A DNA stretch of 34,321 bases, from IMG/VR virus record IMGVR_UViG_3300017917_000193, positions 1 to 34,321 of that record. One strand, given 5' to 3'. Below are positions 1-12,321 of the stretch, piece after piece (the stretch's first letter is position 1; the number at the start of each line of letters is the position of its first letter). This stretch comes from a virus. Below the pieces are notes generated by a model, which was not told the DNA's origin, ran no database searches, and was given only the letters and a program-made list of their open reading frames with translations. The translations under genes were made by a program, and so were the position numbers.

Positions 1-94
1 CACCAGAAGTAATATTGGATAGCGATGTAGCCGCAAGGTCAAGAGATAACTTCAAAGATTCGCTTATAAACTGTATTCCAGTATTACTCCTAAT
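1..94 (+). other. Putative intervening segment of a permuted tmRNA gene
   Basis: The window opens with CACCA, which would fit the end of a tmRNA acceptor strand (discriminator A plus CCA). The bases from 6 to 94 would then be the spacer removed from the precursor before the coding piece starts at GGGGATG. No open reading frame or promoter is evident. The reading depends on sequence beyond the left edge, where a T-arm and a strand pairing with GGGGATG (CATCCCC or a wobble variant) should lie. Confidence 0.4.
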
Positions 95-278
95 GGGGAT
101 GAAATGGTTTCGACAGGGCAAAGAGTAACAGAGTGGACAGCACGGTAATGTGAAAACCGTAGGGTTGGGGGAACTCGGCCGAAGAAGCAAAAAACTTAAA
201 TGCAAACGATTCCGTTTTCGCATTGGCTGCTTGATAAAAGCATCCTAGGGTAAGACATACCTCGTAACAGAAACTCAG
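95..278 (+). ncRNA. ssrA: tmRNA, coding piece (phage-encoded, apparently permuted/two-piece)
   Basis: tmRNA with SmpB rescues stalled ribosomes and adds a degradation tag. The 5' acceptor strand GGGGATG (95-101) is followed by the hallmark D-loop region TGGTTTCGACAGGG. A pseudoknot-like stem pairs ACGGT (142-146) with ACCGT (156-160). The resume codon GCA at 187 opens a tag reading AKNLNANDSVFALAA, followed by tandem stops TGA TAA (232-237). The final ALAA is the classic ClpXP-type degron. Only about 40 bases separate the stops from a strong terminator, and they hold no T-arm, no CCA and no strand able to complete the acceptor stem. A one-piece tmRNA therefore does not fit; the 3' half probably lies upstream as in permuted genes. 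The exact 3' end is unknown. A degraded tmRNA is the alternative. Confidence 0.85.
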
Positions 279-301
279 AAAGGCACTTCGGTGCCTTTTT
301 T
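279..301 (+). terminator. Intrinsic terminator after tmRNA
   Basis: The stem AAAGGCAC / GTGCCTTT closes a TTCG tetraloop (287-290) and runs into a T-tract. It ends the tmRNA transcript and separates it from the oxygenase gene. Confidence 0.9.
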
Positions 302-9702: not shown

Positions 9703-9941
9703 AACGAAGTGTAATAGTTCACTCATTTAGAATGAGCGATGTAGAAGATCCTGATCTATGGGCAGGACAAACATTGTATGAATGGGAACACAGTGACGCT
9801 GGTCAGTGGATTATAAAAAACAGTGTAGAACAACCTTCATGGCATAGACATATGGATCCCAGTACGTATGGCTATGTCTATACAATCAGAGCCTATCTCA
9901 CTGACAAAGCATATACGTATTGGAAATTAAAGTATGAGTAA
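9699..9941 (+). CDS. Unknown small phage protein
   Basis: An 80-residue protein (MKRSVIVHSFRMSDVEDPDL start) rich in Tyr, Trp and His in its C-terminal half. It overlaps thymidylate synthase by four bases and the epimerase by eight. Similar short proteins occur in T4-like phages, but I cannot name a function. Confidence 0.6.
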   Translation: MKRSVIVHSFRMSDVEDPDLWAGQTLYEWEHSDAGQWIIKNSVEQPSWHRHMDPSTYGYVYTIRAYLTDKAYTYWKLKYE

Positions 9942-10908
9942 AATTTTAGTAACAGGTGGACTAGGTCTTATAGGACACCATGTAGTAGCAAAGTTAGAAA
10001 AGCTAGGTCATGAGGTAGTGATCTTTGATACACAGACAAACTACGGTATCATCACGCAGTCAGAGATAGAATATCTCATGTCTGAAAGAAAGAAGAAGAT
10101 CAAAACACACCATATTTACAAGTATGACATTTGTGATTCTAACGGAAATATCAATTGGATGTTTAAGGCTCACAAGTTTGATATTGTGATTCACATGGCA
10201 AGCTTCCCTCGACAGAAGGTTGTCAATGCTAATCCTCAATGGGGTAGTAGAGTAATGAGCGAAGGTCTGTTGAACCTGTGCGAATTAAGCAAAACCAACA
10301 ACGTAAGAAAGTTCGTATACATCAGTTCAAGTATGGTCTATGGTGACTTCACTGACGATGTAACAGAAGATTATAACTGCAAGCCACAAGGACAATATGG
10401 AATACTCAAACTCACCGGGGAACACTTGGTTAAAGATTACACTCGCAGAGGCTGTTTTAATCATGTTATTATTCGGCCAAGTGCTGTTTACGGCCCGCTT
10501 GATGTGGAAGATAGAGTTATTGCAAAATTCATGCTCACAGCGATGCGTGATGGAACTCTTAAGGTTAATGGAGCAGGAGAAACCCTCGACTTCACCTACG
10601 TTGAAGATGCCGCGGAAGGAATCGTCAGAGCTAGTTTAAGTCCTGATACCGACAATAAAACATACAACATCACTAAGAGCCACAGTAGGAGTCTGCTTGA
10701 TGCGGCACAATTAGCTGTGAAGATTGTCGGTAAAGGCACCATTGAAGTTCGTGACAAAGATGCTGACTTCCCGAGCCGAGGCGCATTGAACATTGATGCG
10801 GCGCGCAGAGACTTTGGATTCGATCCTAAAGTCGATGTTGAAGAAGGCTTTCAGAAGTATTATGATTGGTTGAGTACTAGCGCATATTGGCAAGAAAAGA
10901 ATGTTTAA
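9934..10908 (+). CDS. NAD-dependent sugar-nucleotide epimerase/dehydratase (extended SDR)
   Basis: A 324-residue extended short-chain dehydrogenase/reductase. The N-terminal Rossmann motif GGLGLIG spans residues 8-14, the ISSSMVYGD strand holds the catalytic serine/threonine region, and the YxxxK pair is Y155 and K159 in QYGILK. These enzymes epimerise or dehydrate nucleotide-linked sugars; the exact substrate cannot be read. With the DegT-type aminotransferase at 11248 it could build an amino sugar, perhaps to decorate virion or host lipopolysaccharide. It overlaps the next gene by eight bases. Confidence 0.85.
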   Translation: MSKILVTGGLGLIGHHVVAKLEKLGHEVVIFDTQTNYGIITQSEIEYLMSERKKKIKTHHIYKYDICDSNGNINWMFKAHKFDIVIHMASFPRQKVVNANPQWGSRVMSEGLLNLCELSKTNNVRKFVYISSSMVYGDFTDDVTEDYNCKPQGQYGILKLTGEHLVKDYTRRGCFNHVIIRPSAVYGPLDVEDRVIAKFMLTAMRDGTLKVNGAGETLDFTYVEDAAEGIVRASLSPDTDNKTYNITKSHSRSLLDAAQLAVKIVGKGTIEVRDKDADFPSRGALNIDAARRDFGFDPKVDVEEGFQKYYDWLSTSAYWQEKNV

Positions 10909-11257
10909 CAAACTCACTATCCCTATCCTTCGCAAGTTGATGCCAGTTAGTATCGCAAAGGATATAGTTGGTGTACAGCCAATGACTGGTACAAATCCTA
11001 TCTTTCAGATGAAAGACGGTAAAGTAGGATTCAAGAACTATACACTAGCACGTAATCAAAACGAATGTGTCTTGTACGATAAACCTGACTGTACATATTA
11101 TGCAGTTGACGTTAGACCTATAGTAGAAGAATGGTTGATGGAGCAACCTCTTCACATGTGGAAGAATGCAGAAGAAATTGAAGATTGTCAGATTAGTTGC
11201 ACACGCTATATCGTCAGCGAAGAACTATTAACTTGGATGACATTACGATGGGGATGA
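10901..11257 (+). CDS. Small protein with gp23-like motif
   Basis: A 118-residue protein whose first 40 residues read LRKLMPVSIAKDIVGVQPMT, closely resembling the segment of T4-type major capsid proteins that carries the GVQPM motif. The rest (TYYAVDVRPIVEEWLMEQ onward) is not capsid-like as far as I can see, and at 118 residues this is far too short to be a capsid protein (about 500). It could be a decoy, an assembly factor or a derived accessory protein. It sits between two sugar genes and overlaps both. Confidence 0.5.
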   Translation: MFNKLTIPILRKLMPVSIAKDIVGVQPMTGTNPIFQMKDGKVGFKNYTLARNQNECVLYDKPDCTYYAVDVRPIVEEWLMEQPLHMWKNAEEIEDCQISCTRYIVSEELLTWMTLRWG

Positions 11258-12321
11258 ATATACCTCACTTTGGTCTAGCAAGGCAATATGCTAACTTGAA
11301 AGACGAGTTATTAGATGCAACTCATCGTGCCTTGAAAGATGGTTACCTCGTTGGCGGTCACTATACTCGTTCATTTGAAGAATGGTTGAAACATAGAACG
11401 CAAACAAAGTATGCTATCACTGTTCACAGTGGTACACAAGCACTTGAGATTATTGCACGATGGAAAAAGATTAAGCATCACGAAAGTATTACGTCTAACC
11501 CATTGATAAGGCTACCTAATCTAACTTATCCAGCAACACTAAACGCATTCTTGACCGCTGGTTGGGATGTTGAAATAGGTGACACAGATAGGCACGGCAT
11601 CCTACGTAGAGATACCCCTCCCGGTGGAAGAGGTAGTTACGATTGCGTTGTGGGGTTCAGCGGTAGACGACCATGGCCAGAAGCTACCTATCGTGACAGC
11701 TTTAGTGTTATTGTCGATGGAGCACAACATTGGTTAGCATGTGATGGCAATGTTGGTAGTGGTATGGCAATCAGTTTTGATCCTACAAAGAATCTACCTG
11801 CATCAGGCAATGGAGGTGCTATCGTAACAAACAACGAACATTTGTATCTCTATGCAACAAGGTACAAAGACAACAACAAGCCTTACTTTGATGCTGTAGG
11901 TACTAATAGCAAAATGTCCGAGCAAGACTGCGCCCAATTACTAGTACGCACAAAACACATTGATCGTTGGCAAGACCGCAGAAAAAAGATAGCAGACTAC
12001 TGGTGTGAACAATTTAAAGATTTGCCATTTGAATGTCTCAATGACACTAGGACACCTCATGCAAATCAAAAGTTTGTATTGTACATGTCTGATCGAAACT
12101 CATTCCATACTCACATGCTACTCAATGGCATAGATACAAAGATTCATTATGAATATGTATTGGGCGATTTACCTACATCAATAGGATTAACGAAACCAGA
12201 TATGCTTTCTACAAGTGTAATGCTATCTAGGGGCGTGATTAGCTTACCAATCTATCCTGAATTGACTGATTCCGAAGTCAATTATATAGCCGAGAAAGTG
12301 GATGAATTCTTCGGGGAATGA
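11248..12321 (+). CDS. DegT/DnrJ/EryC1-type sugar aminotransferase
   Basis: A 357-residue PLP-dependent enzyme. The substrate side begins with PHFGLARQYANL and GYLVGGHYTRSFEEWL. PLP binding uses the HSGTQALE loop, D157 in VDGAQ, and the Schiff-base lysine K181 in SFDPTKNLPA followed by GNGGAIVT. These enzymes transaminate keto-sugars on nucleotide carriers, and the partner may be the epimerase at 9934. Two starts are possible: ATG 11248, used here, and ATG 11254, which would overlap the previous stop as ATGA. Neither has a strong ribosome binding site. Confidence 0.85.
   Translation: MGMNIPHFGLARQYANLKDELLDATHRALKDGYLVGGHYTRSFEEWLKHRTQTKYAITVHSGTQALEIIARWKKIKHHESITSNPLIRLPNLTYPATLNAFLTAGWDVEIGDTDRHGILRRDTPPGGRGSYDCVVGFSGRRPWPEATYRDSFSVIVDGAQHWLACDGNVGSGMAISFDPTKNLPASGNGGAIVTNNEHLYLYATRYKDNNKPYFDAVGTNSKMSEQDCAQLLVRTKHIDRWQDRRKKIADYWCEQFKDLPFECLNDTRTPHANQKFVLYMSDRNSFHTHMLLNGIDTKIHYEYVLGDLPTSIGLTKPDMLSTSVMLSRGVISLPIYPELTDSEVNYIAEKVDEFFGE

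Follow-up and report, generated by a model that had tools for sequence, protein, structure and literature searches.

A probable circularly permuted tmRNA gene of a PA5oct-like jumbo phage and candidate protein genes in the spacers of its relatives

Known permuted tmRNAs

Two-piece tmRNAs encoded by phages have already been published: 53 such structures have been reported in reference phages, and one example is carried by the Methylophilales phage Melnitz, MZ577097 (PMC9004378). The Melnitz gene, which has a spacer of 142 nt and matches the Rfam model RF04321 with 113 bits, resembles the lineage described here in being permuted, phage-borne, located in a T4-related myophage and provided with a helix-closed spacer. 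Nevertheless, it was filed as alphaproteobacterial by its authors (PMC9004378), whereas the relatives of our gene are partly of the beta type. Additionally, it is annotated under a glutamine riboswitch, while the corresponding upstream region of our gene lies beyond the contig end.

The bacterial tmRNAs described by RF01850 (betaproteobacterial) and RF01849 (alphaproteobacterial), now merged in RF04321, share with the phage genes the order acceptor piece, spacer, coding piece, as well as the T-arm, the CCA end and a tag ending in ALAA. In contrast, bacterial genomes almost entirely lack the core motif of the phage genes. With the contig of L215 set aside, the sampled bacterial spacers measure 5-47 nt, apart from one of 115 nt, whereas those of phages reach 494 nt and often include an open reading frame (ORF). 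Since the beta-type search gave four strong loci only, whose crude scan was unusable, this comparison applies mainly to alphaproteobacterial-type genes. One nominally archaeal permuted tmRNA has a tRNA gene in its spacer and another has a repeat, and the tmRNA database paper that mentions them does not mention protein genes (PMC11915505). The phage spacers are similar in holding something else, but what they hold is many unrelated protein genes, for which we found no description in the open-licence literature.

Taken alone, the gene analyzed here is a further phage permuted tmRNA of the kind already published. What sets its lineage apart is a helix-closed and often gene-bearing spacer, of which the copy analyzed here has the helix and not the gene.

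The tmRNA gene at the left contig end

The window, i.e., the whole stretch of 34,321 nt that was analyzed (IMG/VR record IMGVR_UViG_3300017917_000193), carries the following features at its left end.

1-5, + strand: CACCA, comprising the final base of the acceptor 3′ strand, the discriminator A and CCA, the acceptor piece being otherwise missing (sequence; RF04321 alignment; same context in contig L199, which has a complete acceptor piece and T-arm)
6-94, + strand: intervening sequence (spacer, IVS) of 89 nt with no qualifying ORF (identical in L199; ORF tests)
8-19, + strand: 5′ arm of the 12-bp spacer-closing helix, pairing with 77-88 (RNA fold; the partner-swap test supports the helix class)
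77-88, + strand: 3′ arm of the spacer-closing helix (RNA fold; partner-swap test over phage spacers)
95-101, + strand: GGGGATG, with which the coding piece begins and which supplies the 5′ strand of the acceptor stem (RF04321 alignment; sister genes)
95-278, + strand: coding (mRNA-like) piece, 3′ end approximate (RF04321 match to 234; alignment with complete relatives)
105-114, + strand: TGGTTTCGAC, conserved motif of the tRNA-like domain of tmRNA (RF04321 alignment; conserved in relatives)
202-237, + strand: tag frame with resume codon GCA at 202-204, ANDSVFALAA and stops TGA TAA at 232-237 (sequence; tags of relatives by ARAGORN)
279-301, + strand: intrinsic terminator, stem aaaggcac/gtgccttt with a TTCG loop, then a T run

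An earlier note, based on the letters of the window, had proposed that a phage encodes a two-piece, permuted tmRNA here. The parts that it listed, namely GGGGATG, TGGTTTCGAC, a resume codon, tandem stops and a close terminator, are all present, as is the CACCA with which the window opens. Rfam cmscan gave RF04321 (tmRNA_permuted) as its sole match, at positions 1-234 (65.9 bits, E 9.5e-11, gathering score 47). The match spans positions 59-213 of the model and is cut on its 5′ side exactly at the contig end, which is in line with the proposal that CACCA closes an upstream acceptor piece. ARAGORN called no tmRNA in the window, a silence explained by the missing acceptor half. The source record in IMG/VR is linear and identical to the window; therefore, the contig could not be extended to the left. 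No acceptor piece was found at the right contig end, where it would lie if the contig were circular. Based on its sequence, we read the region from 1 to about 278 as a permuted tmRNA gene that lacks its acceptor piece, the contig beginning inside the gene. The spacer at 6-94 is presumably absent from the mature tmRNA.

The tag, from GCA at 202-204 to GCT at 229-231, is ANDSVFALAA, with a resume codon and the hydrophobic ALAA end, and the tandem stops directly follow its frame. The tag first proposed, AKNLNANDSVFALAA, was five residues too long, as its N-terminal AKNLN precedes the resume codon. This position follows from the 10-residue tags of the ANDxxFALAA type that ARAGORN called at the same place in most relatives and from L085, whose upstream GCA belongs to another frame. 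The suggested betaproteobacterial likeness of the tag stands in part: three relatives (L084, L085 and L090) pass RF01850, whereas others pass the alpha model RF01849. For the truncated window itself, RF01850 was not among the Rfam matches, the subtype gathering score not being reached. Elsewhere in the lineage, the permuted tmRNAs of L116, L151, L178, L185 and L206 have tags of 28-30 residues (e.g., ANADTFDFTALNFTGNTVANDSRFALAA), in which a normal tag seems to be extended at its N-terminus, and those of L133, L196 and L212 have unusual tags ending in EAVLA or EAVMA.

The missing acceptor piece in related genes

Contig L199 (IMGVR_UViG_3300032265_001134, 4,455 nt) carries a spacer that is letter-for-letter the same as the 89-nt spacer of the window, preceded by CACCA and followed by GGGGA. 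Upstream of it the acceptor piece is complete: GGAC, the T-arm GGGAG-TTCGAAT-CTCCC, CTTCTCC and ACCA, with CTTCTCC pairing with the GGGGAAG of the same gene. In the seven detected sister genes with GGGGATG, the strand opposite is CATCTCC in every case. The partner of GGGGATG in the window, predicted as CATCTC/C (the stroke marking the contig end), would accordingly sit to the left of that end. Among 105 sister genes whose acceptor piece was located by T-arm and ACCA only, without the use of pairing, the acceptor stem is paired at 7 of 7 positions in 104; when partners were swapped among them, 28.8 genes were fully paired on average, with a maximum of 42 in 500 shuffles.

The G3-U70 pair is an identity element for alanine. 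All 195 sister genes of a set selected for full pairing have it; in the window, G3 is present and the position of U70 lies beyond the left contig end.

Outside the spacer, which is identical over its 89 nt (6-94), the window and L199 differ in their coding pieces (79% overall). This suggests recombination inside the tmRNA gene, which could possibly also explain the assembly break at the left contig end. The same trace of recombination, and the fact that only part of the gene is visible, would fit a decayed remnant, in which a past exchange, rather than just the end of the contig, had broken the gene. We consider such a remnant improbable: no damage is seen in the coding piece, tag frame, tandem stops, terminator or spacer helix, CACCA coincides exactly with the contig end, and complete sister genes exist. 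A standard one-piece tmRNA, with its T-arm and CCA downstream or elsewhere, would agree with the lack of a permuted call by ARAGORN, but it hardly deserves credence. The terminator begins only about 41 nt after the stops, which, as the earlier note had argued, leaves no room for a T-arm and an acceptor strand; no tmRNA or T-arm was matched elsewhere in the window; the only Rfam model matched is the permuted one; and L199, with the same spacer, is permuted.

Phage identity and distribution

The contig encodes a T4-type terminase large subunit, UvsX, a gp32-like single-stranded DNA-binding protein (SSB), a phage helicase, thymidylate synthase and DHFR. Its nearest terminases among reference phages, at 50% identity, are those of the Pseudomonas jumbo phages of the PA5oct group, and 80 IMG/VR loci have a terminase 81-91% identical to that of the window. 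Complete RF04321 matches above the cut-off were obtained in 8 of 40 contigs with such a terminase, the contigs reaching 524 kb. A ninth contig of the clade (L092/L093) also has the gene, its match being split by the covariance model because the spacer is 382 nt long. A terminase of the window type (55-84% identity) was found on 11 of 24 contigs from the spacer sets, picked mostly for spacers of the ORF or Shine-Dalgarno (SD) type. No permuted tmRNA was found in PA5oct, Atu_ph07 or CBB, and one was found in the Sinorhizobium phage Phosso. The latter is an isolated jumbo phage whose record leaves this tmRNA unannotated (L254, PV764938.1:349596-350198); its 410-nt spacer has no ORF by the rule given below.

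In IMG/VR, at least 119 contigs carry the core motif GGTTTCGACAGGGCAAMRAGTAAC, these being viral by the classification of that database with phage genes checked in a subset, versus 2 contigs in 84,980 bacterial and archaeal genomes. One of these two, 3 kb long with seven tRNAs and a spacer equal to that of viral contig L130, may itself be phage DNA. With the two-piece structures published for reference phages, this count speaks against the rarity that had been attributed to phage permuted tmRNAs. We regard the lineage as more important than the window gene, being widespread in uncultivated jumbo phages with a core motif that bacterial genomes hardly ever contain. Against this background, a bacterial tmRNA gene fused to phage DNA by misassembly or misbinning is extremely unlikely: the contig does break inside the gene and the tag looks betaproteobacterial, but the coding piece is continuous with the contig sequence that encodes terminase, UvsX and SSB, and eight other contigs of the clade carry the gene.

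Other searches with the region gave little. No match was returned when the 310-nt region was compared with reference phages by BLASTN or when an exact 30-mer was sought in viral contigs. The ORF at 327-1172, which adjoins the tmRNA, matched nothing in Pfam or PHROG; used as bait, it found one relative, on a 73-kb contig without an RF04321 match. Its HRD...H spacing, noticed by eye only, suggests a fold like that of Fe(II)/2-oxoglutarate oxygenases. At 9934-12321, the window has genes for an NAD-dependent epimerase and a DegT/DnrJ aminotransferase, sugar-nucleotide functions inside the phage gene cluster.

Proposed function of the RNA

Very probably, then, window positions 1-301 represent the 3′ part (acceptor end, spacer, coding piece and terminator) of a circularly permuted tmRNA (ssrA) of a jumbo T4-related, PA5oct-like phage, acting in ribosome rescue. 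The gene anatomy, the pairing across relatives, the phage context and the absence of SmpB from the searched records are shown by the sequences; processing, charging, tagging and a benefit to the phage are inferred. No SmpB was detected in 30 phage records by a search that was positive in 10 of 14 control genomes; the RNA would thus use the SmpB of the host, on which, as far as these records go, the lineage must rely.

In the precursor, the acceptor stem would fold in line with the 12-bp spacer helix, and host tRNA-processing enzymes would cleave behind CCA and in front of GGGG, so that the spacer is freed while the two RNA pieces remain paired. The two-piece product would be charged with alanine and partner with host SmpB, enter ribosomes stalled on broken mRNAs and add ANDSVFALAA. 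The tagged fragment would then be destroyed and the ribosome freed for phage translation. The tmRNA of the window could have lost its activity.

The helix that closes the spacer

The ends of the window spacer pair by RNA folding over 12 bp. Using a partner-swap test on non-redundant phage spacers, we obtained duplexes of -10.7 kcal/mol between own partners versus -4.6 kcal/mol between swapped ones in spacers classed as ORF-free by the strict rule (z -18, n=62, a few of these having ORFs under a relaxed rule). In ORF-bearing spacers, the values were -8.0 versus -5.5 kcal/mol (z -9.4, n=48). Based on these comparisons, a predicted covarying helix closes the removed spacer in phage permuted tmRNAs. 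When an ORF is present, the SD usually forms one arm of the helix, and the opposite arm is provided by the final codons of the ORF. The repeated occurrence of VSL and VFL as C-termini would follow from this arrangement.

Some spacers contain other structures. That of L089 (IVS of 96 nt) has two additional T-arm-like hairpins, GTGGTTCAATTCCAC and TGAGGTTCGAATCCTCA. Those of L135, with TGATGGTGGTGCTCCACCA in mid-spacer, and L368, with TGATGGGTCAGCCAGGTTCACCA, resemble leftovers, tandem or nested, of a further junction between acceptor and coding pieces.

Candidate protein genes in the spacers of related phages

We counted as a qualifying ORF one that runs from just past the CCA to just ahead of the coding piece, a rule fixed after the first examples had been seen; the excess over shuffles is large. 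Such an end-to-end ORF was present in 16 of 20 non-redundant spacers of at least 130 nt (0.01 expected from dinucleotide shuffles) and in 11 of 33 spacers of 76-129 nt (1.5 expected), both counts coming from a set found mainly via the coding piece, plus clade relatives. A second set, selected by its SD pattern and hence biased and not independent, was counted apart; with both sets pooled, 48 of 116 spacers have an ORF versus 3.0 expected. The typical spacer gene opens with an SD (UAAGGA or AAGGA) close behind CCA; its start codon lies at +8 to +15, and its stop codon, most frequently the TGA of TGATGGG, falls at most 16 nt from the coding piece. The spacer of L356 has two ORFs in succession.

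The encoded products are diverse. One family, found in the spacers of L163, L107, L113, L293, L339, L388, L112, L148 and L149, comprises peptides of 23-24 aa with a single transmembrane (TM) segment, MNDDLT..IGVVVVLVVFAIVLL, with pN/pS 0.37 over 28 pairs. In L286 and L374, a 101-aa protein shows pN 0.15 and pS 0.64. These values indicate purifying selection on both families. Further cargo includes other TM peptides and unrelated proteins of up to 152 aa. Among the longer proteins, Pfam and PHROGs gave no match above cut-off except for an IscU/NifU-like Fe-S scaffold of 128 aa (Pfam NifU_N, E 3e-55; PHROG NifU-like), whose complete gene lies in the 405-nt IVS of L373 (IMGVR_UViG_3300023179_000058, 89,765 nt), a member of the SD-selected set.

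In the window spacer, as in the identical spacer of L199, ORF tests revealed no gene. An ATG at 25 is directly followed by TAG, and a TTG frame from 15 has no SD and continues into the coding piece; both were rejected. The spacer ORF of L085, although preceded by an SD, stays open into the coding piece and was therefore not counted.

We think it likely that the spacer of the permuted tmRNA in jumbo T4-related phages and their relatives is a cargo slot for protein genes, one transcript yielding both a split rescue RNA and the mRNA of a small protein, with the window copy as a gene-free form. This reading takes in the SD almost directly after CCA, the stop often overlapping TGATGGG, the single-TM peptides, the soluble proteins of up to 152 aa and IscU/NifU. 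Translation of the spacer genes would take place either on the precursor or on the spacer after its release, the SD being partly sequestered by the helix. As the SD usually lies in a helix arm, RNA processing or opening of the helix may control this translation. If the spacer genes are translated, a segment that is discarded from a stable RNA also serves as an mRNA, and the expression of a phage protein could be linked to tmRNA processing. Both the tmRNA and the spacer gene can escape tools that regard the spacer as filler or cap its length; for example, the G009 gene was split by the covariance model into two partial matches.

In L335, L345, L286 and L374, spacer ORFs beginning with MRIN or MRIK are preceded by TTGAATAAATACTAG, which we take to resemble the T4-type late promoter TATAAATA. 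Judging from this likeness, the second half of the tmRNA might have an additional late transcript that lacks the first half.
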